Assembly: GCF_000234665.1 (NCBI RefSeq)
Contig: NC_018338.1
Span: 846,084 to 910,083, forward strand
DNA from: Leishmania mexicana MHOM/GT/2001/U1103
Lineage: Eukaryota > Euglenozoa > Kinetoplastea > Trypanosomatida > Trypanosomatidae
DNA: 64,000 nt
Direction of reading: 5' to 3'
Part shown: piece after piece, positions 14,980 through 64,000 of the stretch
Layout of the letters: each line of letters begins with the position of its first letter
Numbering within the stretch: position 1 is the stretch's first letter
Made by a program: the position numbers and the translations under genes
The notes under the pieces: model-generated
The model's database searches: none
Told to the model about the DNA's origin: nothing
The model's input: the letters and a program-made list of their open reading frames with translations, nothing else

Positions 14980-16320
14980 AATACATTTATTTGGCACCTT
15001 CCCTTTGTCGTTCCTCTTCTCCTGCGCTCAGCGAGAGGCCCCCCCCCTTCCCCTCCACCCTCCCTCAAGAAAAAAACGAAAAGGAGGCTCGACGTATCGC
15101 GACTGCGTCTTTCGTGTATTGATAGTTTCTTTTTTGCTTTTTTTTGAGGAGCGTGCGTTGCTGTTGTGCGTGTGTACGTGTGTTTCTCTCTTGTATCTGA
15201 GAGCTCGTGCGTGGGCACGTGAAGTCGCACCTCCTTGTTCTCCCGTTTTATCGTAACAGTGCCCTTTTTTTCCCCCCTTTACTTCTTTGTTCTTGCGTGC
15301 GTGTGCCTGTGTCTGTGTCTGTGTCGGCCTGTCTGTGTGTGTGTGGGTGCTGTTTTTCTCTCCCGTGCATGCGTGTTTCGCCTTTCCATTGCCGCTTTCC
15401 TTCTGTGCAACATAAAACATCCTCCCCTCGTTCATTCCTCACTCTAATCCTCTCCCTTAAGCCTGAATCGTCGTTGATCTTTGCGCTCCTGTGCTGGACG
15501 TCTCGCCAGGTTGGATGACGCGGCAAGATCTCCCCCAGAAAAGAAAGGAGATCGACCGCTTCGCCTGCACACATACATACCGAGAACTAAGTGTCGCGCA
15601 GACGTAAGCAAACACAAGTAGACCCTGGTGAAGGCTGTTGTGACGAGGCGGCGCATCTCATACATATATATATATATGCTTTTTTATTGTTGTCGCGAGC
15701 AAGGCCGAGTGCAAGCCGCGGAGAGAGACTTTCAACCTGTTTTGAGCTCTGTTACAGCGGTGTCTGTGTGCGTGTGCCTCACTTACGCGTCACTTGCTCG
15801 TCACCATATCTCCCTGCTGTGGCGCATAGAAAAAAAACTGAGAACACACACGCATTGCTGCGTTGCTGGGCTGCGAGTACAGGCGAAAGGAAGAGAGTGA
15901 GAGAGTAAGGCTAGAGGTGCAGAGAGGAACAAAGACGAAACAGGCAAACAGAACGCACTGCCGGGGTTTGCGGAAAAAAGCTGTAGTGTGTGTGTTGTGT
16001 GTCTGTTGTGTTTTCGATTCGCCTGCTCCAGTTCGAGCTGTACCGCCATTGGGGTGGCCTCCTTCTTTTTTTGTCTACACCTTTCGCCTTTTTTTTCTGT
16101 AATAGAATTTTGGAACGTTTGGGGCTTATTTCGTTTTATGTTTGCATTTCTTTCATCGCCGTGCCCCTCGCCATCTTGTTCTCCCGATCGCGTCTCTCAG
16201 GCGTACGCCATCGCATATCAGTCAACTGGGCGCCGTGCCAGAGAACGGGCACCGCTCGGAGGTATCTCGCATCTTCGGTCGTTGTGTTCTTTCCCGATTC
16301 CCTTATCCGTTTCTTTTTAC

Positions 16321-16322
16321 AG
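16321..16322 (+). promoter_or_regulatory. Candidate spliced-leader acceptor AG for the kinase gene
   Basis: It ends the tract CCGTTTCTTTTTACAG at about 16307-16322. The first ATG downstream is 16361. A second acceptor-like CTTTCCCTCAG ends at 16356, only 4 nt from the ATG. Both support the ATG at 16361 rather than any upstream extension. Confidence 0.6.
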
Positions 16323-16360
16323 GCGATTCTTCCGGACCACGTTTTCTTTCCCTCAGTCGA

Positions 16361-19300: not shown

Positions 19301-19735
19301 GGCGCAAATGGCAGCAAGAGCCGGTTCCAGCAATTCATGCGCGGCAAGAAAGCACCGAGCGGCGCCTCTGTCAGTGACGACCGCACCTCTAATCAACCCA
19401 CGCTTGCACCCAGGTCACGTTCCACGGTGTCGCCGCTGCTCGATTCGGTTCTCTGCAGCGGCACCAGCGGCTTGGGAGACAGCAACTCAGCTGGGTGCTG
19501 TAGTGCATTCCCTAACCCGAAGACTGTCAGCGTGGCTGGCCGTTGTCTTGCCGTGCCACCAGACGAGCACGCCTCGACGGTGCAGTTGCCAGGCTCGATG
19601 GGCAACAAATACCCCGTAGGGCCGATGCAGGGGCGCCTTTGTGACGGTAAACTGGCTGTTCCCGCCTTGACATCCTTTGAGCAGGTGCCGCGCGTCACGG
19701 TCTCGAAGCGGCTTCCCTCTGTTGTTCGGAAATGA
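16361..19735 (+). CDS. CaMKK-like serine/threonine protein kinase
   Basis: 1124 residues from the first ATG after the splice acceptor. The kinase domain spans about residues 232-600: glycine loop LGRGAYGKVKLG (~240), VAIK lysine (~262), KKLLKKLGG and an extended N-lobe loop before the alphaC Glu. Next come the hinge region YLIMEYVPNGPVV, a catalytic loop HHDIKPDNILV (~417), SDFGVSE (~436), FTAPELF (~497) and DVWALGVTLYCMLVGMSPFF. The 'LYEVIDDP..LYLIMEYVPNGPV' and 'DVWALGVTLYC' segments closely resemble CaMKK/LKB1-type upstream kinases such as yeast SAK1/TOS3 that activate SNF1/AMPK, so the expected target is an AMPK-like kinase (inference). Oddities: HRD is HHD, the DFG-APE interval is about 60 residues with an acidic Ser-rich insert, and there is a ~70-residue insert between hinge and alphaE. 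The ~520-residue C-terminal tail is mostly disordered, except for a conserved-looking DFGISEEEVRGATRTVKVEV (~700). No autoinhibitory calmodulin-binding helix is obvious. Confidence 0.9.
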   Translation: MINSRGKVSGYVKPASPGSAKDAVPFFAAAPRASYSSSDGHNPLIKDLLKDLDRNSSLDDVYGVGHLQAPNASNDDTFSNLDLQLRRPSEESTASCRSSARNRDKAATDILCKTGQRFVHAMWMHKLDDFFSPARGESAEDVLRRQLRKKDQEEVEAVVLSLVELLEEVRKARSQIVPVAGSLSLLDTPGRRRTSFNSMHSAVSTASLMRPPVHETNQLAMAYDQQGNRMINCYRVIANLGRGAYGKVKLGIDTNTGQKVAIKIIDKKLLKKLGGLGTSNQEAALKREIAIMKKVRHRNCVSLYEVIDDPDSHILYLIMEYVPNGPVVRLKPQGLSSTALESIEAGIPLNGEVCNKALMRCAVRQSANGDTASLTDAEINSNPTVFLCKPLSQHICALYLRQLVSGLRYMHKRNLVHHDIKPDNILVGTNHHVFLSDFGVSEILSTRREVENAVKKNRGGPSSDFSSEHSLKSDTSDSTNEDDTDNKPRLGGGTLLFTAPELFDGSVNKRLLDPHLTDVWALGVTLYCMLVGMSPFFGSTYSEVRTNILMQTFPWCGKTMYGTPLAAEWRVVLNGLLAKNPNNRWSLVRLKAFLDRSSFQQTMRQSALLEASTRARSFTSLDGDASPSPSTAQRAAGSVALLSAGTSAKGLKLPLACGSVSKDTNVSLPLPRVVSSSKTVSALSMEAGSAARSFLWDFGISEEEVRGATRTVKVEVMRQKTVLSAHTRTIVRRYVEWIRARMHARNFVPLSCASPLRRRSHVGSLVSVQMCAGANRSGKALTSNSERVHVTHVPVLAVASRLHRASEVSPIGARSFLFPPQRSPHSSAGDARTGRQRNGSCSSNNGSGRGLACGSVENRGLDGRLQSLDAALSIVNLQSTTDAHSLTFFSLTSSSASSQASFSLQTGYRGHHVDRETGYNDSILAGNLATSSEDTPASRNGMADKVSWCNVQTPSTVAQTMLPSSATPSYIAVEESRKGVGANGSKSRFQQFMRGKKAPSGASVSDDRTSNQPTLAPRSRSTVSPLLDSVLCSGTSGLGDSNSAGCCSAFPNPKTVSVAGRCLAVPPDEHASTVQLPGSMGNKYPVGPMQGRLCDGKLAVPALTSFEQVPRVTVSKRLPSVVRK

Positions 19736-21836: not shown

Positions 21837-23016
21837 CGGGACACACTCTTGTTATCAGCGAGTTTGCCGTTGCGTGTGTCTTGCTATTTATTCCCCTTTC
21901 TTCTCTCTCTCAGCTACTTTTCTTTGTGTGTGTGTGTGTGCTTGTGGGCGCGTCTTTGTGGTTGTTCATGTGCTCATGTGCCCTGCTTTCGTCGCGTCTC
22001 TCTCATGTTAACTCTTGGCTCCATCGGATTATGATGTTTTTCTATGCTTCTCCTCGTTATTACTTTGGTACACGGAAACACCAACAAACCAGCTCAAAAA
22101 AAGACAAGGGGGAGCGCTAAACAACTGCGGACTCCTGCTTGTGCCCCTACCCGCCACTGGCCGACTCTGCAGACCCAGGCACTTGTGTGCATGAGAGCAT
22201 GGGTGTCTATCTGAAGGAGCGTGCGTCTGAACGCTTTTGCCACACCTTTTCCGTCGCGTCGCTGCACAAAGCTGACGCCCTCTTTCGCCTCCCTCTGCAG
22301 CCTCTGTTTGCCTCCTCAAGCAATGTAAAGGGGAGGGCAAAGCGATATGACCGCATGCGTGCAAGAGGACGAGTTTTGTGGCGGGAGTGAACGCTGGCGC
22401 GGGTGCGCCTTTGCACCAGTACGTCTCCACTTGGGCGGGCAGGGCGGAAAAGCACAGGGGGGGGGACGGAGATTTCTCGTGTCGCGCTGCGCGAAAGGAA
22501 CGAAAAAAGAGGAAAGCGGGCAGCACTATTCCTGAACAATGACGGTCACCAGAGTCCATTTTGCTCCCTCTATCTTCCTCGCGTTCTTCCTTCTTGCCTC
22601 CACGGCCCGGATCGGCGGGGTTGCAGGTTTGCCTAGAGGGGGGAGGTGTGTCACAAAAAAAAAGATAAGGAAAGGGGCGAAAAATACAGTACAGATTCGC
22701 AGCAAGGAGGGACAGGTTTTTGAGGATTGTGTCAGTGTGTCTCAGCTCACGCTGAACAGCACATCACGCGTTCACGCTAGTTGACACGGTAGAGGCCTAC
22801 TTGAGTTGCCATCTGCGTGTTTGTGCACACACACACACAGAGAATACTCACCTACCGTAAAGAAAAAGGATTGTGCGGAGTAGGAGGGCGGCTTGCATCC
22901 TTCTTGGCCTTTAGTATGCACGCTTCACCATTCAAACGGACGTACACACACAGATACACAACAGCAGATTGACTTTGACGACGGTGGGGCGAGTGCAAGC
23001 CCTCGCGTGCCTGTCC

Positions 23017-25776
23017 ATGACTTCCATTGCATCACAGATCCTTGGGGCACTGGCGGCTGCCTCCAGCCCTGTCGCCGAGACGCGCCATGCAGGTGATCTT
23101 CAGCTCCAGCAGCTGAAGTTGAACGCCACCGCCTACTTCTCCAGCTGTGCAGAAATCTTCGTCTCCCAGCAGGCTGATCTACGCGGACGGCAGTTAGTGG
23201 GCTTCCAGCTCAAGAATAGTCTCGCAGACCCCGCGTGTGCGCAGAACGCGCAACTTCAATCGGCGGTGTGCGAGCAGGCGGTCGCCGACCCGCAGCGCAT
23301 CATCCGAAACGTCGCCGGCAGTATTATCAGCGTGGCGGTGCGTGAGGGGCTGTGGCCTGCGGAACCGGTCGTCCGACAACTCGGCACCATTCTCACTCAG
23401 CGGAGCAATGAACTGGGCGCTGTGCACGGTGCCATCCGCACCTTGTCGTACATCGTCGATGATGCGATGCCGCTGCTCGACGCCGCGGGGCTGACGAAGC
23501 CGGTGCTGCTCGCTGCGCTGCCGTACCTCACGTCCACCGCCTTTGGCACGACCGGAGCAGATGCACTCGAGATACGCGTCAAGGCCCTCGAGATTGTCGC
23601 ACTGATCTTGGAACATGCGGGGATGGACTTCGAGTCGAACAGCTACAAGAGTCTGCAGGGCGGCGTCATCAGCGTCGTGCAAGCGTGCTTCGACAACCTA
23701 AAGGCACCCCTCTCTCAAACCATCGCCACACAGTGCATTCGGTGCATTGCGCTGTCCCTCACGTTTTACCAGGAGATTAACGACGACCTGTTTGGGCAGA
23801 TCGGCCAGCTCATGTATCAGGCGACCACTGCAGGCAACGGGGCTGCCCCGGCCAACGCAGAGGAGGAGAGTCTCCGCATTGAGGCGACGGAGTTCTGGCG
23901 CGCCATCTTGCACTTCCCTCACTTTGCTGAGGTGGCCCAGTCGACTGTCGTACAAATAATTCCGGTGATAATTCGGTCGATGATCTACTCCGAGATGGAG
24001 ATTGGTATGCTGCAGGCGAGCGCCGAGGACTGGCAGGTGCCGGACAAGATCGACTCGATCCGTCCACGCCACTACACAGAGCTCAACAAAGCCGCTGCCG
24101 ACGGCGGCAACGACGGCGAGGAGGACGAGGGCGATGACGATGACGAGGTGGAGGAGTGGAACCTGCGCCGCGTCTCGGCGTTGACGTTAGATGAACTCAG
24201 TCAGTACTACGGCGACCTTCTTCTTCTGCCAGTGCTGAGCTGTGTTGAGGGAATGATCCGCTCTGGGCCGGCCGGCTGGCGCCAACAGGAGGCCGGCGTG
24301 CTTGCCATCGGTGCATTTTGCGAGGGCTGCTACGACTCCCTGGCACAGTTTCTGCCTGATATTTGCCCGATGCTTCTGCAGCTGCTCGAGGCGGCTGATA
24401 CGCATTTTCTCGTTGTTAGCATTTCGCTCTGGTCATGTACGCGCCTCGGCAGCTACTTCCTCTCGAACCATTCGTTGATGGAGCGACTGATGGCGTGCAT
24501 TCTGCGGAAGATGGAGAACCCGTCCAAGATGGTGCAAGGTGCCGCCGTGGAGGCGCTGCGCAGCATGCTGGAAATGGCGGAGGAAGGCCAGGTGGACGCG
24601 GCTGCCCCGGCGATTGTGCGCTCTATCGCGACATGCTTCGGCGCCTATCAGCTCAAGAACCGTGTGCTTCTCTTGGAGGCAGTGCAGTCTGTATGCCAGA
24701 CCCTTGGCGCTGCCGTGCGCGGCAGCGAGGAACACATCTCCACCCTTCTTGCGCCGCTGGGTCAACTATGGTCGCAGACTCCGAATGACAGCCCCCTGCT
24801 GTGGAGCCTGTTCGACTGTATGGCAACCGTGTGCGCCACGCTTGGGCCAGCGATGCAGGCCATGGCTGGCGAGATCTTCAACCGCAGCTTCTCGCTGCTG
24901 CGTGAGCATCTGCAGCAGCGACACGCCGCCCTTCAATCGGGCGACATTCCGCCGGATGAGGAGTTCACCGTGACCTCGTCCATCTTGCTGAGTGGACTGT
25001 TTGACGCAATGGGGTCGGGTCTGGAGCCTTTGGTGGCTCAGAATGAGCCGGTGTTCATGCAGCTGACGCTCTCGATGCTCTCCGACGCGTCACCGCACAT
25101 TCGGCAGAACGGCTTCTGCCTCGCGAGCGATTTGGCACGCACGTGCCCAATGCACTTGCAGCAGGTTCTCCCCCAGTTCTGCGACGTGGCGGTGCAGAAT
25201 GTCACGATGGCCGACGAGTCGTGCTACGGAGTGGTCAGCAACGTTGCCTGGGCGGTGTGCAACTTACTAGAGCATGAAGTGGATGGCACTGGGGCTCCGA
25301 CGATGCAGACAAGCCCGGCCATGTCGCAGCTGTTTGCACTCTTTGCAAAATTGCTGGGACACACCAACATTACCTCGGATATGCGCAACATGGCAGAGAA
25401 TGTGTCGCTGTGCCTCGGCGTCATGCTCTACGTCGACGCCGACGTGGAGTCGAAGGCGGGCTGCTCCGTGGAGCTCTTTGCTGGTGCGTTTTGCCGCTTC
25501 GTGCGCAACGTCCGCGAGTCATCGTCGCTGCTGGAGGCGAGCACGAACGGTTTTCTGATGGCAGTGCAGCAAAAGCCGAGCGCTGTGGTGAACAATCTTG
25601 TCCTCTTCTGCGATCTTGGTTGCTCCGTGGCAGTGGAAGGCGTGGAGGCAAGCCGCATGATCCGTGATTTGCTTTCTAACGCCTCGCGAGCGAACCCCGA
25701 CGCGTGGCGCCAGGCGCTTGCCGCCTGCACTGAGCCGACCCGCAAGAAGCTATACGAACGATACGGCTTTCGGTAA
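23017..25776 (+). CDS. Transportin / karyopherin beta-2 (importin-beta family)
   Basis: 919 residues starting at MTSIASQILG; in-frame sequence upstream has no ATG. The length is close to transportin-1 (~890). The protein is built of tandem HEAT-like helical pairs throughout. Near residues 360-385 is the diagnostic acidic loop (GEEDEGDDDDEVEEWNLRR), matching the H8 loop of transportins that ends in 'DWNLRKCSA' and releases cargo on RanGTP binding. Nearby segments also follow transportin order: EATEFWRAILHFP, IRSMIYSEMEI, RQQEAGVLAIGAFCEGC, NPSKMVQGAAVEALRSMLE and, near the end, PDAWRQALAACTEPTRKKLYERYGF. The expected role is RanGTP-regulated nuclear import of PY-NLS cargoes such as RNA-binding proteins. 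The N-terminal HEAT repeat includes ADLRGRQLVGFQLKNSL, as expected for Ran contact. Confidence 0.93.
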   Translation: MTSIASQILGALAAASSPVAETRHAGDLQLQQLKLNATAYFSSCAEIFVSQQADLRGRQLVGFQLKNSLADPACAQNAQLQSAVCEQAVADPQRIIRNVAGSIISVAVREGLWPAEPVVRQLGTILTQRSNELGAVHGAIRTLSYIVDDAMPLLDAAGLTKPVLLAALPYLTSTAFGTTGADALEIRVKALEIVALILEHAGMDFESNSYKSLQGGVISVVQACFDNLKAPLSQTIATQCIRCIALSLTFYQEINDDLFGQIGQLMYQATTAGNGAAPANAEEESLRIEATEFWRAILHFPHFAEVAQSTVVQIIPVIIRSMIYSEMEIGMLQASAEDWQVPDKIDSIRPRHYTELNKAAADGGNDGEEDEGDDDDEVEEWNLRRVSALTLDELSQYYGDLLLLPVLSCVEGMIRSGPAGWRQQEAGVLAIGAFCEGCYDSLAQFLPDICPMLLQLLEAADTHFLVVSISLWSCTRLGSYFLSNHSLMERLMACILRKMENPSKMVQGAAVEALRSMLEMAEEGQVDAAAPAIVRSIATCFGAYQLKNRVLLLEAVQSVCQTLGAAVRGSEEHISTLLAPLGQLWSQTPNDSPLLWSLFDCMATVCATLGPAMQAMAGEIFNRSFSLLREHLQQRHAALQSGDIPPDEEFTVTSSILLSGLFDAMGSGLEPLVAQNEPVFMQLTLSMLSDASPHIRQNGFCLASDLARTCPMHLQQVLPQFCDVAVQNVTMADESCYGVVSNVAWAVCNLLEHEVDGTGAPTMQTSPAMSQLFALFAKLLGHTNITSDMRNMAENVSLCLGVMLYVDADVESKAGCSVELFAGAFCRFVRNVRESSSLLEASTNGFLMAVQQKPSAVVNNLVLFCDLGCSVAVEGVEASRMIRDLLSNASRANPDAWRQALAACTEPTRKKLYERYGFR

Positions 25777-28964: not shown

Positions 28965-30998
28965 ATGGAAATTACCAACAGCAACGCGGTGTCGCTGTTG
29001 CCCTACGTTGGGACACTTTTGCGCGACTGCTCCTTCTTTGCGGTGGACCTGGAGTTTTCCGGCATCGACCATGAAGGCACCGAAGCTGACGCGGAAACAC
29101 CAGAGCAAGCTCTCCACTCTCTCATGCGAAAGCCATCTGACCTGTACCCGGCAAAGTTGCAGGCTATCAAACCGTACAGCATGGTGCAGATCGGCATCTC
29201 CGTCTTCACGGAGTTAGCGTCCGGTGACGCCAAAGGAGTCACGAGCGCGAGCGGGGCAGCGTCTTTGACGTTGCCCTCCTCGGCGGCGGCTCACCTGAGA
29301 AAGGAGGTGGCGGAGTTTTTGGCGGCGAACGTCGAAAATCACATTACCTATGCGGAAACCACCGCCGTGGTGGAGGGATTGCTGACGAGCGCGAACGGCG
29401 CGGCCGCGGGCTTCACCGCGGCGTTCAAGTACATAACTGAGCAAATGATGGCTGTTGCGCAGTCGCTGGAGGTTGTTGCAACGTCCAGCGGTATTTGTGC
29501 CACGGCAGAGCAGCATCCGCAAATTCAGTCGCTCCCTGGCCTGCGGTACCATTACCGCTTCTTAGAGGCTCTCAGTCGCGCTGTTGCCAGCTATCGGAGA
29601 GAAATCACCGCCATCGGCGCGGCGGCGTTAGAGGCGCCGGTGGCGCGCTACAAGGTGCACACGTTCTCTGCACTGACGTTCCCGGCTGCAACCGACTCCG
29701 CGGCGGACGTCACGCTCAACATCGACACCGCCGAGTTTCTCGTCAAGAACGACATGGACCTCACGCGCTGGGTGAAGGAAGGGCTCCGCTTTGCGCCGAT
29801 AAAGGTGGCAGCTGCCCAACTCGCCAAGGAAGCGGAGGCGAAGTTGCAGCAAATGAACCTGCTGGCGCAGCCGCACACCGTGCTGCCAGGGTACAAGGAA
29901 TGCATCGGCAGGAAACTAGACGAGTTGCTTCCCCTCTCTCCAGGCGAGCTGCAGCTAGTAAGATTTGTCATCTCTCTCCCGGACGCGGGGTCCGGTGATA
30001 TGGCGGCAGCCAGGGTGAAGCAGTTCTACGTCGGAGCACTTCGTCCCCTTATTTCCTTCGCGCGCGGCATTGTTCCAGAGTCGGCGCTGCCAGAGTCCAT
30101 CTACACGAGAGACAAACTCTTCAAGGACGAGATGGACGCGCTGGCGGCCATTGGGATGACGAAGATGAGCCGCAAATTTATGAGGGCAGCCATCACCAGC
30201 AGCTGGGGCAGCGGGTGCGGCTCCAGTCTTGTCTCTCATAGTTATGGCAGCACCCTCTTGGAGACTCTCTTGTATGCAACCGAAGTGCAACGGAAGCCCA
30301 TCGTCTTCTACAACGGCTACACGGATGTGATGTTTCTGCTGCTCGCGCTTTACGGGCCGCAGAACATGCCGCCGGACCTGTCGTCCTTTAAGTCGCTGGT
30401 GCGCCGTCATTTCCCGTCCCTGTTCGACACGCGCATCCTCAGCTGCTCTGGGCCGCTTCAGGGCTTGGGGAACTTCACAGGGAAGCTCTCGAGTGTGGTT
30501 GATGAGATGAGCAAAGTGAACTCTATCGGGCCACACGTGTCGTTTAACTTTGATCCGCTCGTCTCTGGTGGGCGTGACGCGACGCAGCACTTGGTGGCCC
30601 ACAACGCGGCCTTTGATGCCCTGCTTACTGGCAAACTGTTTGCGTTTGCCAAGTACGGACTCGAAAATGCCAACGTCAGCGTCAACTTGTATGAGAACTT
30701 CTTGGCCACCTATACTACGTTGATGTCGATCAACCTGCAAGGCAGCGTAGACAGTGTGCTGCAGGAAGGGGCTGTAAAGGTGTACTACCTGCCGAACACG
30801 TCTGGGCTGCGGGCGGATACGATACGTGAGGCACTCGCGGGATGTGGGATCACAGCCATGGTGATGTACCGAGGGAGCGGTTATACCATTCAACCAGTAG
30901 GTGCTGCGTGTCAGATGCCGGATCTGATGCAGGTGATGAAGGAGGCGCTGTGCGCTAGGGCTCGCTCGCAAATCGAATTGTATCACATTTCACTGTGA
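28965..30998 (+). CDS. PARN-family poly(A)-specific 3' exoribonuclease (DEDD deadenylase)
   Basis: 677 residues. The catalytic DEDDh set of poly(A) ribonuclease is present: D28 and E30 in FFAVDLEFSGI (same numbering as human PARN), a third acidic residue at D454 in FYNGYTDVMFLLLALYG, and H546/D551 in HLVAHNAAFDALLTGKLF with the family's five-residue spacing. Between the first and third motif there are about 160 more residues than in human PARN; I see no clear R3H consensus there. The conserved KPSDLYPAKLQAIKPYSMVQIGISVF after the DE motif also fits PARN. The C-terminus (VYYLPNTSGLRADTIREALAG, MVMYRGSGYTI) resembles the compact RRM-like end of the family. Its role would be removal of poly(A) tails from mRNAs or non-coding RNAs. 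Trypanosomatids carry several PARN paralogues and I cannot say which one this is. Confidence 0.9.
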   Translation: MEITNSNAVSLLPYVGTLLRDCSFFAVDLEFSGIDHEGTEADAETPEQALHSLMRKPSDLYPAKLQAIKPYSMVQIGISVFTELASGDAKGVTSASGAASLTLPSSAAAHLRKEVAEFLAANVENHITYAETTAVVEGLLTSANGAAAGFTAAFKYITEQMMAVAQSLEVVATSSGICATAEQHPQIQSLPGLRYHYRFLEALSRAVASYRREITAIGAAALEAPVARYKVHTFSALTFPAATDSAADVTLNIDTAEFLVKNDMDLTRWVKEGLRFAPIKVAAAQLAKEAEAKLQQMNLLAQPHTVLPGYKECIGRKLDELLPLSPGELQLVRFVISLPDAGSGDMAAARVKQFYVGALRPLISFARGIVPESALPESIYTRDKLFKDEMDALAAIGMTKMSRKFMRAAITSSWGSGCGSSLVSHSYGSTLLETLLYATEVQRKPIVFYNGYTDVMFLLLALYGPQNMPPDLSSFKSLVRRHFPSLFDTRILSCSGPLQGLGNFTGKLSSVVDEMSKVNSIGPHVSFNFDPLVSGGRDATQHLVAHNAAFDALLTGKLFAFAKYGLENANVSVNLYENFLATYTTLMSINLQGSVDSVLQEGAVKVYYLPNTSGLRADTIREALAGCGITAMVMYRGSGYTIQPVGAACQMPDLMQVMKEALCARARSQIELYHISL

Positions 30999-37012: not shown

Positions 37013-39709
37013 ATGGCCTCTGCCTCGTCGGCTGCTGCGGTGAGGGTTGCGGCTCGTGATGACCCTTCGCCTTTTCCGCCACCATCACGAACAGCAACGC
37101 GACGTCCTCGCCTGAATGTGCTGGGAGGACTGCAGTGCACGCCGTCCCGTCGCTCGCTGAAGTTTTCCGCCACCTGGCATGCGCGGCAGTTTCTCGCCTT
37201 CGACACGGCAATCAGCCGCGACGAGCGGCTCTTCTTGTTTATGGAGCTGTTTGTGTTCCGCCAGCAACTGGTCGATCGGCGCGTGCTGCCCGACTTCCAA
37301 TTCGCCACGTACGCTCCGGAGGAGCTTCTAGAGGTGCGCGTCATCACTGACCCGCGCCACCCCGCCTACGGGCAGGCTGGCCTCTTTGCCAAGAGCACGA
37401 TCCCGTCCAACACAATCGTCACGCCTTACTCGGGTTTCATTGAGGTCTTCGCCACGTCGTGCAACTCCCGCACGTACACAATGGGGTTTGGTGCCGTCGG
37501 AGACGACTATGCGCTCGACGCGGAGTTTGTCGGCAACTATGGGCGCTTCGCGAACGACCCGCGTGGCGTCGGCACTCTGCAGGCGAACCTCTCCGCTGAA
37601 AACCGCTTTAACAGTCGCGGGGAGTCTTTCACAGCACTCGTGTCGCGGCGACAGATCAACGCGGGGGAGGAGATACTCATGTCCTATGGCAAGGCACATC
37701 GACTGAGCGCGACACCATGGATGAACGTCCAGGGAGAGCCCATCATGCGACCGCGCCTCGGCGGTATCGTACCGTTCCCGTCTTTCCGCACTGAATCTGT
37801 CTCCGCTGTCACTGATTCGACCTCTGCGTCCCCTGCGCTCGCCACATCGTTGTCGCAAAGGTCTGCCGACGGCGCCAAGACCGAGGACGGCTGTGCAGCT
37901 GAGGGGTCAGGCGTCGCTGCCGTCAGCGCCTCTGCGACAGGTGGTTCCGCCTCATTATCCGAGGTTGATGGCGCATCAGCGCCGGCCATCGATCCCGCGG
38001 GGGCCACCTTGAACGCGCCAGACACGAAGCAGCCGGTGGCGCTGTCGAGATTCTTACCTGACGTCGCTAACGATCTTCTTTGGGAGTGCACGCAGTGCGG
38101 TATGTGGTCGATCTGTGAGGCATCCACGGCGGATGCGCCGCTGCCCTGCGCTGCTTGCGCCACCCCAAAACTGAGTGGCGCACGGCTAGTGAGTCTGCTC
38201 AGCAGTCCAGCCATCACACAAGCGATGTTGCTAGCAGAAGCGGGGCTTGACGCTCAAGGGCCCTCTGCAGCAAGTACCTCCACGCCGCCGCCAACTCAGG
38301 TCTCCGCTGCGTCGCTTACCTCCTCTACTAGCTTCAGCTCTGAGCACACCGACTGGCCCATGAACGTGCCGTTTCTACCGTGGCAGGTCTGGGATGCGGC
38401 CGTGCCACTGACGGTGCTGGCGAAGCACTCGCGCTTCGAGACCCAGGGACACATATTCGTGTACACGGTCGACACCGGGCTGGGCCGAGAGAAGCGCGGC
38501 CGCAGTGTGCGTGATGTCCACGGGAGTGGGTCCTCAGTGACTGCGCACATGCCGCCAGGGACCCCCGACGCGGAGCCATCGCAGGAAACCCGTTCCTCAA
38601 CGGTGGCCCGGTTCCAGCTTCATTCGCGTAACGCAGATGACGCCTCGCTAGCGGGGCTGCGAGTTCGTGACGAACACCCTATTGTCACCGAAGAGAACCG
38701 GACCGGCGGCGGCAGCGCCGGCCACAGCAGTGGCCGCTCGAAGCGCAACGCGCTGTGGGAACGACAAGGCGATTTGGACTCGGAGGAGCTCGCACTTCTC
38801 ACCCCCGGTATTGCAACGCTGCCCTTGCTCTCATCTTCCGTCTCCGCCTACTCGCCGGCGCATGCTCTAGCCTCTGCCGCCTCGCCGACGAAGCTGCCTT
38901 TTCTTGAGTGGACAACATCGGCGAGCGGAGAGGGTGGTACTTCCACAGGCGAGCACTTGGGCCTCGCGCAGATGGGAAGTCTCACTGCGGTTCCTTCGCA
39001 CGAGACAAGTGACTCCGTTGCAGGCATGTTGACCCGGCCCCCACTCTCTTACCTCTTGTCCACGACGCAGGAAGTGGACCGGCTTGTCGTTCTGCACCGT
39101 GCCGCTGCCAGTGGGCCGTCGCCGGTTGCTGGGACGTCGTATTCGCCGCAGATGGCCCTTGTCCGCCGGCGTTTGCAGTGCATGACGCGCAGACTTTTCA
39201 CTGGCAAAGCGTTTCATCCAGGTGACGTCGTCAGCTACGTTGGTGGCCTTGTGCGGCGGCGCGGTGACTCCCGATGCCGCGTGTCGAACTCCTGCCTCGA
39301 GATCCCTCTTCGCTTCTTTCTCCCGCCACGACTGCGCCACCGTTGTGGCGGCAGGGCTTGCTTGGCACGCTCAGGAGATTCGCAGGGCGACACAGCGGAG
39401 GACGCAACGTTGCAGACCTTCTGTGAGCGCCTCGATCGCCTTTCCCTTGTTGTGACAAACGAGTTCATGTACTGCCCCTGCCTCGTGCTGGAGGTTACGC
39501 AGGAGGAGGATAGGGCGCCACTGATAGGGACAGAGGTAAGCGACTCTGCCAGCGATAGTGCTGGGTATGAGGACGAGGTGGATGATGCGCTCGAGTCCTG
39601 CAACGTGGCCCTCGTGCTCACGTTGGACACTCTTGGCAGCCCCTTCGCGTGTGCAGTGGCGATCAAGCCCATCGGCGCCTTTGAGCCCCTTCTGGCGCGT
39701 GCGCAGTAG
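37013..39709 (+). CDS. SET-domain protein with central Cys4 zinc-finger-like motif
   Basis: 898 residues. A SET domain lies near the N-terminus (about 105-225): AGLFAKSTIPSNTIVTPYSGFIE, then VGNYGRFANDPRGVGTLQAN, where the usual NHS is NDPRG as in SET subgroups with an N-D-x-R-G motif. It closes with RRQINAGEEILMSYGKAH, containing the GEE and the SYG tyrosine. There are no pre-SET or post-SET Cys clusters around it. At about 357-387, LWECTQCGMW...PLPCAACATPK forms a CxxC-x16-CxxC finger with a preceding Trp, resembling RanBP2-type or CW-type fingers. A third conserved-looking region (about 720-880: GKAFHPGDVVSYVGGLVRRR; VVTNEFMYCPCLVLEV) could be a small beta domain. The expected activity is SAM-dependent lysine methylation; substrate and compartment are unknown. 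Confidence 0.85.
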   Translation: MASASSAAAVRVAARDDPSPFPPPSRTATRRPRLNVLGGLQCTPSRRSLKFSATWHARQFLAFDTAISRDERLFLFMELFVFRQQLVDRRVLPDFQFATYAPEELLEVRVITDPRHPAYGQAGLFAKSTIPSNTIVTPYSGFIEVFATSCNSRTYTMGFGAVGDDYALDAEFVGNYGRFANDPRGVGTLQANLSAENRFNSRGESFTALVSRRQINAGEEILMSYGKAHRLSATPWMNVQGEPIMRPRLGGIVPFPSFRTESVSAVTDSTSASPALATSLSQRSADGAKTEDGCAAEGSGVAAVSASATGGSASLSEVDGASAPAIDPAGATLNAPDTKQPVALSRFLPDVANDLLWECTQCGMWSICEASTADAPLPCAACATPKLSGARLVSLLSSPAITQAMLLAEAGLDAQGPSAASTSTPPPTQVSAASLTSSTSFSSEHTDWPMNVPFLPWQVWDAAVPLTVLAKHSRFETQGHIFVYTVDTGLGREKRGRSVRDVHGSGSSVTAHMPPGTPDAEPSQETRSSTVARFQLHSRNADDASLAGLRVRDEHPIVTEENRTGGGSAGHSSGRSKRNALWERQGDLDSEELALLTPGIATLPLLSSSVSAYSPAHALASAASPTKLPFLEWTTSASGEGGTSTGEHLGLAQMGSLTAVPSHETSDSVAGMLTRPPLSYLLSTTQEVDRLVVLHRAAASGPSPVAGTSYSPQMALVRRRLQCMTRRLFTGKAFHPGDVVSYVGGLVRRRGDSRCRVSNSCLEIPLRFFLPPRLRHRCGGRACLARSGDSQGDTAEDATLQTFCERLDRLSLVVTNEFMYCPCLVLEVTQEEDRAPLIGTEVSDSASDSAGYEDEVDDALESCNVALVLTLDTLGSPFACAVAIKPIGAFEPLLARAQ

Positions 39710-54644: not shown

Positions 54645-57600
54645 ATGCAAAGCTTTCCTGCGGCAGCTGCGTCTCATGTTGCCGCGGTCAACTCCGCGGT
54701 AGCGCGCGGCGCCGCGGCGTCCTCCGTCGTTGATCCTTCAACGGTAAGCGAGTTCGAAGCGTGCTGCCGCGCCCTCAGTCAGAAAGTCAATAAGGCTGTT
54801 GTGGAGCAACTCCCAGTGCTACAGAATGGCACCGTTGTGGACCTGTCACACAACTACGTTGGCGCCGCCGGGTTGCAAGCGATCGCGGTCATTCTTCAGC
54901 ACAACCCAAATGTAACCGAGGTACGGGCACCGCGCAACGGCCTCACGAACGACGCAGTCGTGCTCTTCTGTCGCGCTATGCGAGGGCACCAGCAGCTGTT
55001 CGCGTTGGACTTGTCCGACAACCCGGACGTTTCGTTGGCTGGCGGGCTTGCCCTTGTGAACTTGGCACAGCAGACACCGTCCCTGCGTGTGGTGAAGTTG
55101 AACGGCACACATGTACTTGCAGCGGTGCTCGATAAGTTGACGCGCGCTCTCGATTACAATGCGTCGCACCACGGCACCACCTCGCCCAGCGTTGTCGCCG
55201 CACTGCCGACCGCAGCTGTGGTTGCCTCATCGTCGACGTCGCCATCAAGCGCTGCTGTGGGGATGTCTGACGAGGCACAGACACTGCAGACTCTTCGCGC
55301 ACGCGTGGAGGTGGCACTGGAGGAGGGCTATCTAATTCCGCCAGCATCCCCGCAAACAGGCTGGCGTGTTCTCGATGTGCCCATTCTGGCACCCCCGCTG
55401 CTGTTCGACAACGAAGTGCGTCTGTTGTGCAACGAGGTGTTCCCGCGACTCAACCAGGAGTTCGCCTCGCACCGTCTTATTCTCTGCCCTGTCGTTGTCG
55501 GCGGCGGTGCAGGGGCCGTCAAAGATGATGACAAGGCCAGTGATAGCGCGGTGTGCCTGCGGCCTCACCGCACAGCCGGGGCGTACAACCGTGCGCTACA
55601 CTTCCGCCCAGCCAGTGACGTTACCTCCATCGTTGAGCGCGGCCGGTTTGTGACGATCGAGCTCGTAGGCGACCTCCCCGGCGACTACGCGCAACTCGTG
55701 GCGAGTGCTATGCTGAGGTTGCAGGGGATCCCGCAGTCTGCCCCCCAACGCGTAGAAAGCCATGACGACGAAGAGCCTGAGGAGGCCGCCGCACCGCTTC
55801 AGCCGGTGCTGTACGAAGCGCACGAAGCCGCGCTGCGCTACACTCGATGGCTCCTCGTGGCGACGCGGCGCGACACGCGGACGCTTAAGGTGCCTGCCGC
55901 GCTAGCACCGCTGCTCACCGCCGACCCGATCATCGCACACCCAGACCGACACCGGAGCATCGTGCGCGCAATTTTCATCGGCGACGAGACCCCGTCCCCG
56001 AGTGTTGTGGGGCCAGTGAAGGTAGGTGAAGGCAGCAGAATCGGGGCAACATCGGCATCCGCTGCCATTCCCACCTCGCTCGAGTGGGACTACGCAACGG
56101 AAGAATACCAGTGGAGGCGACATGTGGACTGGCGGGAGCATGTTGTGGCCACGGCGCCAGTGGCGGAGCTCGTCATTCCACAGTACACGGCTACCTTTGA
56201 CTGTATAGACGCACAGGGTGGCGTGCGACTGAAGCACCTCGACGGGTTCCAGATGGCCGTGTATGCTCGACTCCGCACCGTTTTGGAGGCCTGCGTCGCC
56301 GCTGAGGCGAGTAAGCGTGAAGCCAGGGAGGCAACCGAGTTGGATGCAGGGTCAAAGTCACTGAGCCGACTGCTGCGGAACATCGGAACGCAACGGGCGT
56401 GGGACACAACGTACTTACAGGCCCTGGCCGCTACCAGTAGCGGCGCGGCGAAGAAGAACCTCATGAACCGCATGATACTCTACGCTGCGAACCCGCCTAG
56501 CCGCAACATGCTGGTTTTGCACGGCACCGACGCCGCCTCGCTCGAGAGTCTCATGGCGCGCGGCGCCGCCCGGCTGCAGACGCTTCAGCACGTGTACACG
56601 TTGGCCGTCTACACGGTACGCTCAGCTCTTTTGCATGAGGAGCCGACAGAGCTTCGCAGCGTTGTGACCCACGTTGTGTCTCAACTGACGAAGGATGCGG
56701 CGGTGCTGCGCTACGTGAATGCAGAGGTCGACATAGAGCGCTTGAGCGCGTTCTTCCTGCAGGTCATATCTGGCTCTGTGCCTAGTAACAACGTCGGCAG
56801 GCCGGCGCATGCCAACGGTGCGAAGACAGCAGCTGCCACGGCCATGGGCGAGGCAGGACTGCCAGGGTACGTGGCCCAGTACACCTTGAGTACCGACGAG
56901 GAAGCCAGCGCTGGCAACACGGCCTCCACCCACGCCTTTGTCGTCCTGCTGGACGGCTTGGAAGATTTGGCGATGCCGGTGCAGCCATGTGGTGCCCTTG
57001 TGCACCCGCCACGGAGCAGCGGCAACATTGCTGATGGCGGCGGTGCCGAGCCATCCAGCTGGTCGACAGAGAGGACCGCTCAGATGCCTTTTTCGGCGGC
57101 CCCGTCAAGTGTGACGTCGAAGACTCAGCCGAAGCCACGGAGAACGCCAATCGACTGGCTGCTGCCTCGTGCCCTGGCTCGCTACGTCCGCCTCATCGCC
57201 AGCTGTGCGTCGAAAAGCGCTGCCTTTTCATCTTTTTCTCACCTTGGTCGGGATAGTGCGGACATGCTTAGCTTCGGGGCGGTGTCGACGAACGAGGTGG
57301 AGCAGTACCTGTCCCCGGCTTCCCTCGCGCGCGTCGGCCTTGTCTTGTCAGATGACGAATACGAGTGCGCTCGCAGCAAGCGCGATGCCCCGATGGGGGA
57401 GTACATGAACTACCTGCTAGATGCCGCACGCAGCGTGCATGAGGCACCTGGTTTTCTGACGCAGATACAAGTGATTCAGACGTTCCCGGAGACCCTCCAG
57501 GAGGCCGCGCAGGGCGTGTACGATCGCCTCGTGCACACGTTTGGCCTCCCCCTCACCCGCCATGTTCTGGGGTTGCTGATGGCGTCCCGGTGGGGCCTGT

Positions 57601-60014
57601 TGCTGCCAGAGCTGCGCGACCTCTTGCCTAGTTTGTCCATGTGCCGACTGCAGGAGCTGCTGCGGTTGCTGCGGCCCGCCCTCGAGCAGGAGGCACCGGG
57701 TGCGGCAGCGGAGATGATGGGCGTTGGCAGCGGCAACGTGCTGCTTGGTGCTGTACGCCTAACTGCCCCGTCGTTCCTCGAGGTGGTGCAGCGAGAGTCC
57801 CTTCAGCAAGTTTCGGATGAGGTGCAGGCCGAGAATGATCAGCGCGTCTGGCATACGCAACTGGCACAGTACTATCTCTCTATCGTGTATCGATGGCTGC
57901 AACCTGGCACAGCGGTGGATGCGGCCCCCACCAAGGTGCGTCGCGTGAACGACGCGTCGGCTGCTGAGGCGTACGTTCGCCCTGAAACGCAGGCGCTGCA
58001 TCGACGCGCCATGAAGGAGGTGATTTACCACATGACGCAGAGCGGCGACTTCTGGTCGAGGATGGATGTGACGATCTTGTCTGTGCCTTTCATGGAGCAG
58101 GTGTACGAGTCCGAGCTGGGCTACGCATACCTGCGCGACCTAACAGCGGCCTTCAACGAGCGCTACCAGCGCCACCTCCTTGGCGAGGACATCGGGGAGC
58201 CATCGTGGCAGAAGCATCAGCTCGCCCGTGAAAACGGCGGAGGTGAGATCACCGCAATGGCAGCAGACGATGCACAGGCGAGCGGCACTCCCAGGTCGGC
58301 GGAGTCGAGCCTCTACGCCCTTCCTGCAGTGCTGATTCGCATGCGCGACTATATCTGCTTCGCCCACCAGTACGGCCTGCTTCTTTCCCTGCATCCAACC
58401 CTCGTGGCGCAAGTCGCGTTGCAGATCCCGGCGAGCCTCCTCAACGCTGTCCATCGTGATGCCGTCACGTACCTCTGCCGTCAGCTGCAGGACAACGGCG
58501 GATTTGTGGAGAGCAGGGCATCTCTGTCGCGTGTCTTCTTCGCCATGACGGCCGCGGAGGCTAAAACAGAAGGGAAGCAGCCGACTCATCTGCGCCCCAT
58601 CACGTGCGCCGCCTTCCTGCCGAATCGACTCTTCGTGGTGACGGCTAGCAGCGATCGCTCGTTGGCGTGGGTGAATCCAGAGAGCGGAAAGGTGGCGTGG
58701 TATGCCCGGCAACCGACGGCAGCGGTGGAGTCGCTCACGGTGTGCCGCACCAGCGCTTACGTTGCTGCCGTGTCGGAGGATCGCACGGTGTGGGTGTACG
58801 ACGGCCTGCAGGGCACTCTCGTTTCGCAGTGCCGCGGAAGCAAGTGGTTTGATGCCCCCATCGCGTCCCTCACATTCTCGGCTAGGGGTCGCTATCTCTG
58901 GGTCGTGACAACGGACGCGCGCGTGCGCTGCTTTGCCTGCGAGTCTGGCCAGCTGCGGTGCTCGATGAGCCTGTCGAAGCTGCTGCAGGTGCGTGTCGAT
59001 GAGTCAGCGTCGAACGGGGAGGCGATGCAGCTGGTGGGTGCCGGGGTTACCGCGGCAGAGGAGGGGATGCCCCTCGTCTCTGGTGAGTGGCGCCATCGCC
59101 GCCACTATCTGCACGTGCTCGTAGACGCCGAGGACGACGAGGTGTGCACGACGGTCGTGGCAACGGAGCTGCGACAGTGGCGTCTTCGTCCGTGGGATGA
59201 GCCAGTACCGACGGCAGGGGAAGACAGCCGACCAGCACACCAGAGCACAACCCTCATTGCGTATGAGATGACAATGAGCTGCTCTCTTAGCAAGGCGCCG
59301 GCAAGTGCCTCGGATGGGCCGTTAGGGTATAAACTCATGAAGCTATGGGAGTCAGCTAACGTGCAGTCGCCCGACATGTGTATTCTGGCGGTGCCACACG
59401 CCGAACCCGAGGTGCAGCTATTCACGCTGGAATACACCAGTGGCACTCCACGGCTGGTGGTTCGGTTCCCGCTTGCCGTATCTTCGTGCAGCAACTCAGG
59501 CGCGGCTCCAGCGGCACAGGAAGTCTCCGTGATGTGCACGTCGCCGGACGGTCGATGGGTCGCCGCCGGGTTGATTGGCGGCGCTGTGAGCCTCTTCTGC
59601 ATCGGCGCCGCATATCACGCGTGGCAACAGCAGCAGACGGGGGAAGCCCTGGTTTGCAGGCCGACGTGCGTCTACACGAGTCTGATGCCGACACCAGGTA
59701 TGTCGGCAACTCCGCTGCGCTCTCTTATGTTTCACCGCGATGGCCATTTTTTGTTTGCACTTGGCAATTGCCTTGTCTGCTGGCGCCTGCCCGACGCCGC
59801 CTCTGTGCCGCGCCGGGCCAACGCAGCGGAGGTCGTGCGCAGCACCGCTGATGGCCAGTACTTGTGTTCACACACACCGACATGCCTTGCCGTGCTGCCG
59901 CCACCGACACCATGCAAGAGCGACGCGGAGCTGCCTAGAAACGTCGCTGAAGTGGCCGTCGGCGATGAGGCCGGCCGCGTGACTCTACTCACGTTGTGGC
60001 GGCAGCTCATCTAG
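54645..60014 (+). CDS. Large LRR - degenerate STAND NTPase - WD40 protein
   Basis: 1789 residues in three parts. (1) About 55-165: ribonuclease-inhibitor-type leucine-rich repeats (TVVDLSHNYVGAAGLQAIA; LFALDLSDNPDVSLAGGLALV). (2) About 245-1300: a region like NWD1/NPHP3/TEP1-type STAND proteins. It includes a flavodoxin-like lead (LLCNEVFPRLNQEFASHRLI), an NTPase core whose P-loop position NMLVLHGTDAASLESLMARG (~620-639) lacks the GK[ST] signature, a Walker-B-like strand AFVVLLDGLEDLA (~764), and helical winged-helix-like sequence (~950-1300) containing EVIYHMTQSGDFWSRM. (3) About 1315-1785: WD40-type blades (ITCAAFLPNRLFVVTASSDR; VAAVSEDRTVWVYDG; SLTFSARGRYLWVVTTDAR; VMCTSPDGRWVAAGLIGG). There is no signal peptide or transmembrane segment. 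Such architectures act as oligomerising scaffolds or sensors in animals, plants and bacteria; with a broken P-loop, this one may be a scaffold. A flagellar/ciliary role (as NPHP3) or RNP role (as TEP1) is speculative. Confidence 0.8.
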   Translation: MQSFPAAAASHVAAVNSAVARGAAASSVVDPSTVSEFEACCRALSQKVNKAVVEQLPVLQNGTVVDLSHNYVGAAGLQAIAVILQHNPNVTEVRAPRNGLTNDAVVLFCRAMRGHQQLFALDLSDNPDVSLAGGLALVNLAQQTPSLRVVKLNGTHVLAAVLDKLTRALDYNASHHGTTSPSVVAALPTAAVVASSSTSPSSAAVGMSDEAQTLQTLRARVEVALEEGYLIPPASPQTGWRVLDVPILAPPLLFDNEVRLLCNEVFPRLNQEFASHRLILCPVVVGGGAGAVKDDDKASDSAVCLRPHRTAGAYNRALHFRPASDVTSIVERGRFVTIELVGDLPGDYAQLVASAMLRLQGIPQSAPQRVESHDDEEPEEAAAPLQPVLYEAHEAALRYTRWLLVATRRDTRTLKVPAALAPLLTADPIIAHPDRHRSIVRAIFIGDETPSPSVVGPVKVGEGSRIGATSASAAIPTSLEWDYATEEYQWRRHVDWREHVVATAPVAELVIPQYTATFDCIDAQGGVRLKHLDGFQMAVYARLRTVLEACVAAEASKREAREATELDAGSKSLSRLLRNIGTQRAWDTTYLQALAATSSGAAKKNLMNRMILYAANPPSRNMLVLHGTDAASLESLMARGAARLQTLQHVYTLAVYTVRSALLHEEPTELRSVVTHVVSQLTKDAAVLRYVNAEVDIERLSAFFLQVISGSVPSNNVGRPAHANGAKTAAATAMGEAGLPGYVAQYTLSTDEEASAGNTASTHAFVVLLDGLEDLAMPVQPCGALVHPPRSSGNIADGGGAEPSSWSTERTAQMPFSAAPSSVTSKTQPKPRRTPIDWLLPRALARYVRLIASCASKSAAFSSFSHLGRDSADMLSFGAVSTNEVEQYLSPASLARVGLVLSDDEYECARSKRDAPMGEYMNYLLDAARSVHEAPGFLTQIQVIQTFPETLQEAAQGVYDRLVHTFGLPLTRHVLGLLMASRWGLLLPELRDLLPSLSMCRLQELLRLLRPALEQEAPGAAAEMMGVGSGNVLLGAVRLTAPSFLEVVQRESLQQVSDEVQAENDQRVWHTQLAQYYLSIVYRWLQPGTAVDAAPTKVRRVNDASAAEAYVRPETQALHRRAMKEVIYHMTQSGDFWSRMDVTILSVPFMEQVYESELGYAYLRDLTAAFNERYQRHLLGEDIGEPSWQKHQLARENGGGEITAMAADDAQASGTPRSAESSLYALPAVLIRMRDYICFAHQYGLLLSLHPTLVAQVALQIPASLLNAVHRDAVTYLCRQLQDNGGFVESRASLSRVFFAMTAAEAKTEGKQPTHLRPITCAAFLPNRLFVVTASSDRSLAWVNPESGKVAWYARQPTAAVESLTVCRTSAYVAAVSEDRTVWVYDGLQGTLVSQCRGSKWFDAPIASLTFSARGRYLWVVTTDARVRCFACESGQLRCSMSLSKLLQVRVDESASNGEAMQLVGAGVTAAEEGMPLVSGEWRHRRHYLHVLVDAEDDEVCTTVVATELRQWRLRPWDEPVPTAGEDSRPAHQSTTLIAYEMTMSCSLSKAPASASDGPLGYKLMKLWESANVQSPDMCILAVPHAEPEVQLFTLEYTSGTPRLVVRFPLAVSSCSNSGAAPAAQEVSVMCTSPDGRWVAAGLIGGAVSLFCIGAAYHAWQQQQTGEALVCRPTCVYTSLMPTPGMSATPLRSLMFHRDGHFLFALGNCLVCWRLPDAASVPRRANAAEVVRSTADGQYLCSHTPTCLAVLPPPTPCKSDAELPRNVAEVAVGDEAGRVTLLTLWRQLI

Positions 60015-62541: not shown

Positions 62542-64000
62542 ATGTCGGACACTACCGGCGACCCTTCCTTGCTCAGTCAACTGCAAGGAAGCAAAGCAGT
62601 GGTGAAGCGAAGGCGTAGCATGGGCACCAAGTCGTCCACTGCGTTCTCGCCTGTGAAGCGACGCTCTCCGAAGTCAAGCGCCACCGGTGCAACTGCTGCC
62701 GCCTCCACCGCCGCACCGGCACCCCCCGTTTTGGCGTTTCGGAAGTACAAGACGACAAAAACGACTGCAAGGGACGCGGACGGCAACACCGCGCCCAACG
62801 AAAATGGTGGTCACGGCGACGACCACAGGCCTCTGGAAGCGTCACCCGGCGATCTGCAGAATTTTACCACGTCTCTAGAGCGCAAATCTCTGACCGCGAT
62901 CAACAGAAGTGCCGAGTTGCCATGCGTCTTAGGCACCGACTCGCCGTCTGCTGCACAGGCTTCCAGTCCTCACGAGGACTCACATGGGTGCCAGGACAGC
63001 GCATCGATAAAAGAACCGCTGACGGGCGCTTCAGTGAGTACTTCGTGCGAAGCGCTGTCGTCTGGTGCGAATGAGGGAGCCAATGTGGTCAACACGGACG
63101 CTCTGCAGCCGTTGAGGAGGCCAAGTCGAGCTGCTGAGAACGGGTCTCCTGAATCCGACACGGCAGCTGCAGAGGAGTCACTCTGTAGCCAAACCGGCGG
63201 TGGTGCATTCAAAAATGCTGACACTACAAAGCACAGAGCCGGAGACGGGTCCCTTCGCCTTTGCTCATCCAATGCCGCGACGCAGAAAACGACGTCGCCC
63301 CCACGTGCGCGTCTGAACCAACCTTCAAAAGACATCTGCCCTTCTAGCCCCTCCACAGCGGAAGGGATCTCTCCCCCGAATGTCTCAGAGAATTTGGACG
63401 GCACCATCAAACCCACAGCGATGATCGAGAATGCCGACTCAAGCAATGTGCTTGTCTCTCGTCCACTATCTGCTTCTCACAGCCTCAGTAAAGGATCTGC
63501 TGACGATGCAACATCCATCGCCAGTGCGGGACAGGCCGTGCAAGGGCGGGATGAGGCAGGTGCGGCAAGAGTGTTGTTGGTGGTGCCGGAGCTGTCTCCC
63601 AGAAACGGGTCTAGCCCACCTCATCAAAGCCTCTCGCACGTTGACGGGCCCCCTCCCCTGCAGTCACGGGCGGGCGTGACGGCTATGGGAGAGAGGAACA
63701 ACACGGATAGCATCGACTCCTTTTCCGACAAAGGATCTTTGGCCTCACGCACACTGGGCCTCAAGCCTCAAGCTCCGCCAGTGCAACCGTCAGAATCTGC
63801 AGAGGCCAACAAGTCGTCGTTGTCGACGTCAAACCGTAGCTTTTCATTTGTCAGTGCGAAGGCGGTGTCAGCGCTCTCCATCTCTCGACTGCACGCCGCG
63901 CCGATTCCACTGCGCAATTTCGGCGCGACGTGCTATCTGAACGCGGTCGTGCAGTGCCTGCTATGTACACCTGACCTGCTGCACACGCTGAACAATGACC
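62542..64000 (+). CDS. Ubiquitin-specific protease (USP, peptidase family C19), N-terminal part, cut by window end
   Basis: Open from ATG 62542 (MSDTTGDPSLLSQLQG) through the last base, 486 complete codons, with no stop. The first ~455 residues are Ser/Ala/Pro-rich and likely disordered, with basic clusters (VKRRRS, VKRRSPK) that could be nuclear signals. At 455-481 the USP Cys box appears: PIPLRNFGATCYLNAVVQCL followed by LCTPDLL, corresponding to 'GLxNxGNTCYMNSxLQxL'; the catalytic Cys is residue 464 (TGC at 63931-63933). The Asn of the oxyanion region (Asn in 'RNFGATCY') is present; the usual Asn before Thr-Cys is Ala here. The His box and remaining catalytic domain lie beyond the window. 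It removes ubiquitin from conjugates; the substrate is unknown. Confidence 0.88.
   Translation, partial: MSDTTGDPSLLSQLQGSKAVVKRRRSMGTKSSTAFSPVKRRSPKSSATGATAAASTAAPAPPVLAFRKYKTTKTTARDADGNTAPNENGGHGDDHRPLEASPGDLQNFTTSLERKSLTAINRSAELPCVLGTDSPSAAQASSPHEDSHGCQDSASIKEPLTGASVSTSCEALSSGANEGANVVNTDALQPLRRPSRAAENGSPESDTAAAEESLCSQTGGGAFKNADTTKHRAGDGSLRLCSSNAATQKTTSPPRARLNQPSKDICPSSPSTAEGISPPNVSENLDGTIKPTAMIENADSSNVLVSRPLSASHSLSKGSADDATSIASAGQAVQGRDEAGAARVLLVVPELSPRNGSSPPHQSLSHVDGPPPLQSRAGVTAMGERNNTDSIDSFSDKGSLASRTLGLKPQAPPVQPSESAEANKSSLSTSNRSFSFVSAKAVSALSISRLHAAPIPLRNFGATCYLNAVVQCLLCTPDLLHTLNND

Follow-up and report, generated by a model that had tools for sequence, protein, structure and literature searches.

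An LRR-WD40 protein of Leishmania mexicana as a probable doubly inactive relative of the TEP1/NWD1/NWD2/NPHP3 class

The window analysed here is a stretch of 64,000 nucleotides from Leishmania mexicana MHOM/GT/2001/U1103 (contig NC_018338.1, forward strand, positions 846,084 to 910,083), in which one uninterrupted 1789-codon frame, at 54645-60014 on the + strand, encodes a protein that begins with leucine-rich repeats (LRR) and ends in a WD40 beta-propeller. The long region between them has features of a STAND nucleoside triphosphatase (NTPase), but not the lysine of its P-loop. From what does such a protein descend, and could it still work as a switch? The protein aligns with 23 database relatives, at identities from 90% (L. 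donovani) to 32%. Named relatives come from Leishmania, Porcisia, Novymonas, Leptomonas, Lotmaria and Trypanosoma (cruzi, conorhini, rangeli, theileri, vivax, brucei, congolense and grayi). Several orthologues, including those of T. brucei, T. theileri and L. tarentolae, carry the UniRef name "Flagellar Member 5" (FLAM5), and the family is called FLAM5 here after it. The 24-row alignment used throughout consists of the window protein and these relatives and spans Leishmania to Trypanosoma brucei, with bodonids and other early kinetoplastids outside it; the N-terminally incomplete rows P0020, P0023 and P0024 were kept. Searches of the own genome covered 32.03 Mb in 545 contigs, the window lying on contig C34. 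The features, in window coordinates, are:

54645..60014, + strand: whole coding sequence, 1789 amino acids, one open frame
54756..55169, + strand: leucine-rich repeats (residues about 38-175), from matches to solved LRR chains
55326..55967, + strand: likely degenerate DUF4062/TIR-like domain (residues about 228-441)
55668..55682, + strand: GDLPG (residues 342-346), aligned to the GxRYG motif of DUF4062
55818..55823, + strand: A392-H393, invariant pair (24/24 rows) in the putative catalytic-glutamate helix
56451..57314, + strand: STAND/NACHT-like NTPase core (residues about 603-890), from profile comparison of residues 608-930
56514..56555, + strand: degenerate P-loop VLHGTDAASLESLM (residues 624-637)
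56934..56963, + strand: Walker B-like AFVVLLDGLE (residues 764-773, with D770 and E773), from alignment and profiles
57180..57206, + strand: sensor-1-like RYVRLIASC (residues 846-854), from alignment and profiles
57312..58544, + strand: winged-helix/helical extension (residues about 890-1300), from collinear profile alignments and fold comparison
58554..60011, + strand: WD40 beta-propeller (residues about 1304-1789)

Read from the sequence, the domain order would thus be LRR, a likely degenerate DUF4062/TIR-like domain, a P-loop-less NACHT-like core, a helical extension and WD40. The initial annotation listed the LRR, NTPase and WD40 parts correctly and overlooked the DUF4062-like domain at about 228-441.

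The switch of STAND proteins consists of nucleotide binding, exchange and hydrolysis in the P-loop. The P-loop equivalent had been placed at about residues 622-635 and was found within two residues of this, at 624-637. In the column of the P-loop lysine, the 24 rows contain leucine (16), valine (7) or methionine (1) and never lysine; in the following column they contain alanine (11), threonine (10), serine (2) and glutamate (1). The latter is E634 of the window protein and is peculiar to it, as all other rows have alanine, threonine or serine there. The first glycine of the loop (residue 627) is retained in 21 rows, the last one (residue 632) in two. The pattern [AG]xxxxGK[ST], an intact copy of which elsewhere in the protein had been named as refuting the proposal, was looked for in the window protein and does not occur in it. 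Among the 23 relatives it occurs in P0015 (T. conorhini) only, as GDILTGKT at residue 669 of that protein, away from the aligned P-loop. The alignment of Leishmania and Trypanosoma orthologues that had been suggested as a check thus contains no intact P-loop, and since no row has the lysine, it would, by parsimony, have been lost before these two genera diverged.

Other parts of the site are better preserved. The Walker B-like stretch LLDGLEDLA noted earlier lies at residues 768-776; its aspartate is present in 23 of the 24 rows (glutamate in P0025), and three residues further on a second acid is found in all (aspartate in 16, glutamate in eight). In the sensor-1-like strand R846 and R849 are present in every row. 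Compared with what defines a STAND NTPase, FLAM5 has the hhhhD Walker B with its second acid and the homology of the core and helical extension, and lacks the P-loop GxxGxGK[ST]; for this last reason we file it as a derivative of STAND NTPases and not as a member.

Two proteins served as yardsticks for the middle region, the TEP1 of the own genome and a plasmid-encoded protein from Chloroflexota that shares its DUF4062-NACHT-WD40 layout. The first was located by a DUF4062 search of the own genome, which found the domain in one place, a 4227-codon open frame on contig C26 (E 8.1e-9). Its protein contains a TROVE domain (E 2.9e-60), a DUF4062 domain matching human TEP1 chain 11gz (E 1.5e-17), the P-loop GCDGDGKS, the Walker B VVMLDGLD and WD40 repeats, and with all of these it is identified as TEP1:

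Contig C26, L017 1-8580 and L019 1726-5400: TEP1 of the own genome (TROVE-DUF4062-NACHT-WD40)

A plasmid search for DUF4062 gave three places, of which two were fetched, the third being at E 0.04; a second one gave six records, mostly WD40 parts. Neither for the TEP1 DUF4062 domain nor for the Chloroflexota protein did two scans of contig collections reveal a relative.

In hhalign comparisons, the FLAM5 profile of residues 225-1312 aligns with TEP1 over 263 columns with a score of 60.6 (E 2.4e-6), against at most 21.6 for 11 controls, and with the Chloroflexota protein over 275 columns with a score of 67.2 (E 2.5e-7), against at most 24.5 for 11 controls. Residues 480-1312 score 61.0 with TEP1 (controls up to 21.9), and a further collinear alignment of FLAM5 and TEP1 profiles covers 217 columns. 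When the core (608-930) is compared with the NACHT core of TEP1 and the Chloroflexota protein, the score is 52.6 (E 6.6e-7) and 20 controls reach 17.1 at most; P-loop, Walker B and sensor regions fall on their counterparts, with the lysine on L633 and the serine on E634, the leucine and glutamate originally proposed for these places. Thirteen other frames of the own genome, taken as controls, score up to 23.8; seven of them have a Walker A-like pattern, one in a vault-protein frame, probably by chance. Own-genome NACHT matches (30, of which eight loci were taken) served as controls in this comparison, and over the total of 55 (11 + 11 + 20 + 13) the maximum is 24.5. The filter of hhalign used 22 of 24 rows for residues 225-1312, 23 of 24 for the core and 21 of 23 for the DUF4062 part. 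The E-values refer to single pairs and are rough, so that it is the controls that bear the argument. By these sequence comparisons, the STAND origin of the core and helical region, together with the loss of the P-loop, is shown, and the derivation put forward in the initial annotation is upheld; a helical extension after the NTPase is also found in TEP1, NWD proteins and APAF-1.

Fold comparison agrees more weakly. Residues 600-900 are modelled at low pLDDT (predicted local distance difference test), with an order of strands and helices that fits a P-loop NTPase. In the VIA fold comparison APAF-1, Dark and a STAND protein rank highest, from this low-confidence model; with the T. grayi model, it covered the propeller only. 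Foldseek with the window model returned 112 matches, none at E <= 0.001, and no STAND protein was among the best 50 of them. In Pfam scans of 22 proteins no NACHT, NB-ARC or DUF4062 was listed (P0020 and P0024 lay outside the scan, and 25 of 26 families were seen in one listing). A PDB sequence search with a middle-region profile (A3) gave no matches, while in another with a seven-row profile WD40 matches filled the best 60 of 495. No near-identical chain for FLAM5 is present among the best 60 of 84 PDB matches.

DUF4062 is a TIR-like domain that adjoins NACHT in TEP1, NWD1, NWD2 and NPHP3, and is an NADase in TEP1. Residues about 228-441 of FLAM5 are likely a degenerate version of it. The arginine column of the GxRYG motif has a leucine in the window protein and arginine in 17 of the 22 rows having a letter there. 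The helix that, from the order of the elements, would hold the catalytic glutamate may be placed at the invariant A392-H393 pair, next to which a glutamate (residue 394) occurs in 20 of 24 rows; the local DUF4062 alignment ends before this helix. No candidate for an invariant counterpart of the catalytic glutamate (E1008 of TEP1) was found in the 24-row alignment, and the NADase site of the TIR-like domain has very probably been lost as well. The C26 TEP1 retains the catalytic-type glutamate (in SVTELE) and the GxRYG arginine, has leucine in the positions corresponding to R908 and R954 of TEP1, and is, from its sequence, a candidate NADase.

As for the two ends of the protein, LRR_6 is below the Pfam cut-off in the window protein (13.9 against 23.4 bits) and above it in relatives P0014 and P0019; residues 65-170 match one solved PDB chain at E 8.1e-9, with weaker matches to others, and NLRP3 chains match the LRR at E 0.06. 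The best-matching chain, 9fqr_Km, is labelled Tubulin alpha-3, a label that looks wrong. LRR-like matches are also present elsewhere in the own genome. P0017 of Leptomonas pyrrhocoris, another trypanosomatid LRR protein, combines a FLAM5-like LRR near its N-terminus with a protease-type domain, CHAT (PF12770); its match covers 6% of the query and it was excluded from alignment A4. WD40 in the window protein is above the Pfam cut-off (34.3 bits against 27), and the region has the propeller fold.

Taken together, FLAM5 is probably a doubly inactive relative of the TEP1/NWD1/NWD2/NPHP3 class. Its ancestor would have been a DUF4062-NACHT-helical-WD40 protein of this class, as the profiles show for the core and helical part; for DUF4062 this is likely. 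With the P-loop lysine and the last glycine of the loop gone, FLAM5 should not cycle nucleotide, and it would then most likely be held in one fixed conformation. LRR and propeller, at opposite ends, would offer two binding surfaces, and the protein would probably act as a constitutive structural scaffold. The location in the flagellum is suggested by the database name. PMC6022219, on trypanosomatids, has a protein of the name FLAM5, putatively that of the window gene, as a flagellar protein predicted to be palmitoylated, and measured its transcript; the passages seen of PMC11971395 and PMC6615630 name other FLAM proteins, not FLAM5. We give the reading of FLAM5 as an inactive descendant of the DUF4062-NACHT-helical-WD40 class, with an N-terminal LRR and serving as a constitutive flagellar scaffold, a probability of about 0.62.

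Of the alternatives, the one that survives best is that FLAM5 binds nucleotide in an unusual manner, making use of Walker B, sensor 1 and contacts of the backbone, and that the nucleotide regulates it without being hydrolysed. The conserved Walker B acids and first loop glycine would fit this, but the lysine is absent throughout and the last loop glycine nearly so, and we consider it unlikely. Slightly less probable still is a P-loop-less sensor or adaptor that would keep its STAND oligomerisation surfaces and act beside an intact STAND protein, by analogy with the P-loop-degenerate plant sensor NLRs, which act beside helper NLRs. Walker B, both sensor-1 arginines and the helical extension have indeed been retained despite the loss of the P-loop, and the same genome encodes an intact class member, TEP1. 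However, nothing places the two together: PMC12547018 describes TEP1 as a vault protein, and FLAM5 has a flagellar name. That the middle region does not derive from a STAND protein and its motifs arose by chance in a long LRR-WD40 linker would agree with the missing Pfam and Foldseek matches and the weak structural model, but is highly improbable given collinear alignments of 217-275 columns, scores that surpass the best control in each comparison by a factor of two to three, and STAND chains heading the fold list.

Returning to the inactive-descendant reading, a fuller history may tentatively be drawn, which we hold to be doubtful as a whole. In the common ancestor of the two genera Leishmania and Trypanosoma, a TEP1/NPHP3-class protein would have lost its NADase and ATPase sites, gained an N-terminal LRR and become a dedicated flagellar part. 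Even now it may form assemblies with intact STAND proteins of the flagellum, or read out their state, without using nucleotide. FLAM5, known in the searched databases by name and WD40 domains, can thereby be given an evolutionary source and a model open to testing, and an added case is provided of a switch of cell death and immunity turned into an apparent structural pseudo-enzyme outside animals and plants. Because one genome encodes TEP1 in intact form as well as an inactive relative, the effect of losing the switch is open to side-by-side study. None of the papers listed in searches of one literature library connects FLAM5 to STAND, NACHT or DUF4062. The opinion that this architecture is rarely discussed in kinetoplastids is to be qualified: orthologues already carry a database name, and PMC12547018 describes TEP1, a genuine member of this class, in trypanosomatids and reports it as omnipresent in Trypanosomatida. 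The same paper gives three major vault protein (MVP) paralogues for most Trypanosomatida, which agrees with the three frames of the own genome (L022, L023 and L024, on contigs C21, C20 and C5) that contain nine Vault-repeat matches.

Of ten frames scanned with Pfam at E 0.001, five are without a match. Neighbouring frames with matches are:

16142-19735: frame matching protein kinase
22969-25776: frame matching HEAT-like repeat
28965-30998: frame matching CAF1 ribonuclease
37013-39709: frame matching SET
62542-63999: frame matching ubiquitin hydrolase, below the cut-off

Among known systems, TEP1 shares with FLAM5 the order DUF4062-NACHT-helical-WD40, DUF4062 being likely in FLAM5, and a collinear profile match that begins at Walker B and continues across the helical extension; in the core comparison it begins at the P-loop. 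Unlike FLAM5, TEP1 has TROVE, the P-loop GCDGDGKS and the glutamate of SVTELE, while FLAM5 lacks the P-loop and an invariant match to the catalytic glutamate, and adds the N-terminal LRR. TROVE is not among the Pfam matches of FLAM5 and a separate TROVE protein is present in the genome; FLAM5 does not qualify as a TEP1 orthologue. The animal proteins NWD1, NWD2 and NPHP3 resemble FLAM5 in that DUF4062, likely in FLAM5, adjoins NACHT and is accompanied by helical and, in several, WD40 parts. Their P-loops are intact, and they are not known to have an N-terminal LRR; NPHP3 is a ciliary protein. According to PMC13174449, TEP1 and NWD proteins are DUF4062-NACHT-helical, several with WD40, and purified human NWD1, NWD2 and NPHP3 show no NADase activity. 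APAF-1 and Dark have the same NTPase-helical-WD40 layout and are the top fold matches of the low-confidence model. APAF-1 has a working P-loop. It also has a CARD and two propellers (PMC13174449), whereas FLAM5 combines an LRR with a likely TIR-like domain and seems to have a single propeller. NLRs, NLRP3 among them, likewise unite LRR and NACHT-like parts in the same polypeptide. The parts recognised at the outset (LRR, STAND, WD40) are therefore present, but their order is not that of NLR, NWD1 or TEP1 proteins, the N-terminal LRR being an addition. In NLRs the LRR follows the NACHT/NTPase; in FLAM5 it lies at about 38-175, before the core at about 603-890, and the C-terminus is WD40. With its LRR at the wrong end, FLAM5 is not an NLR.
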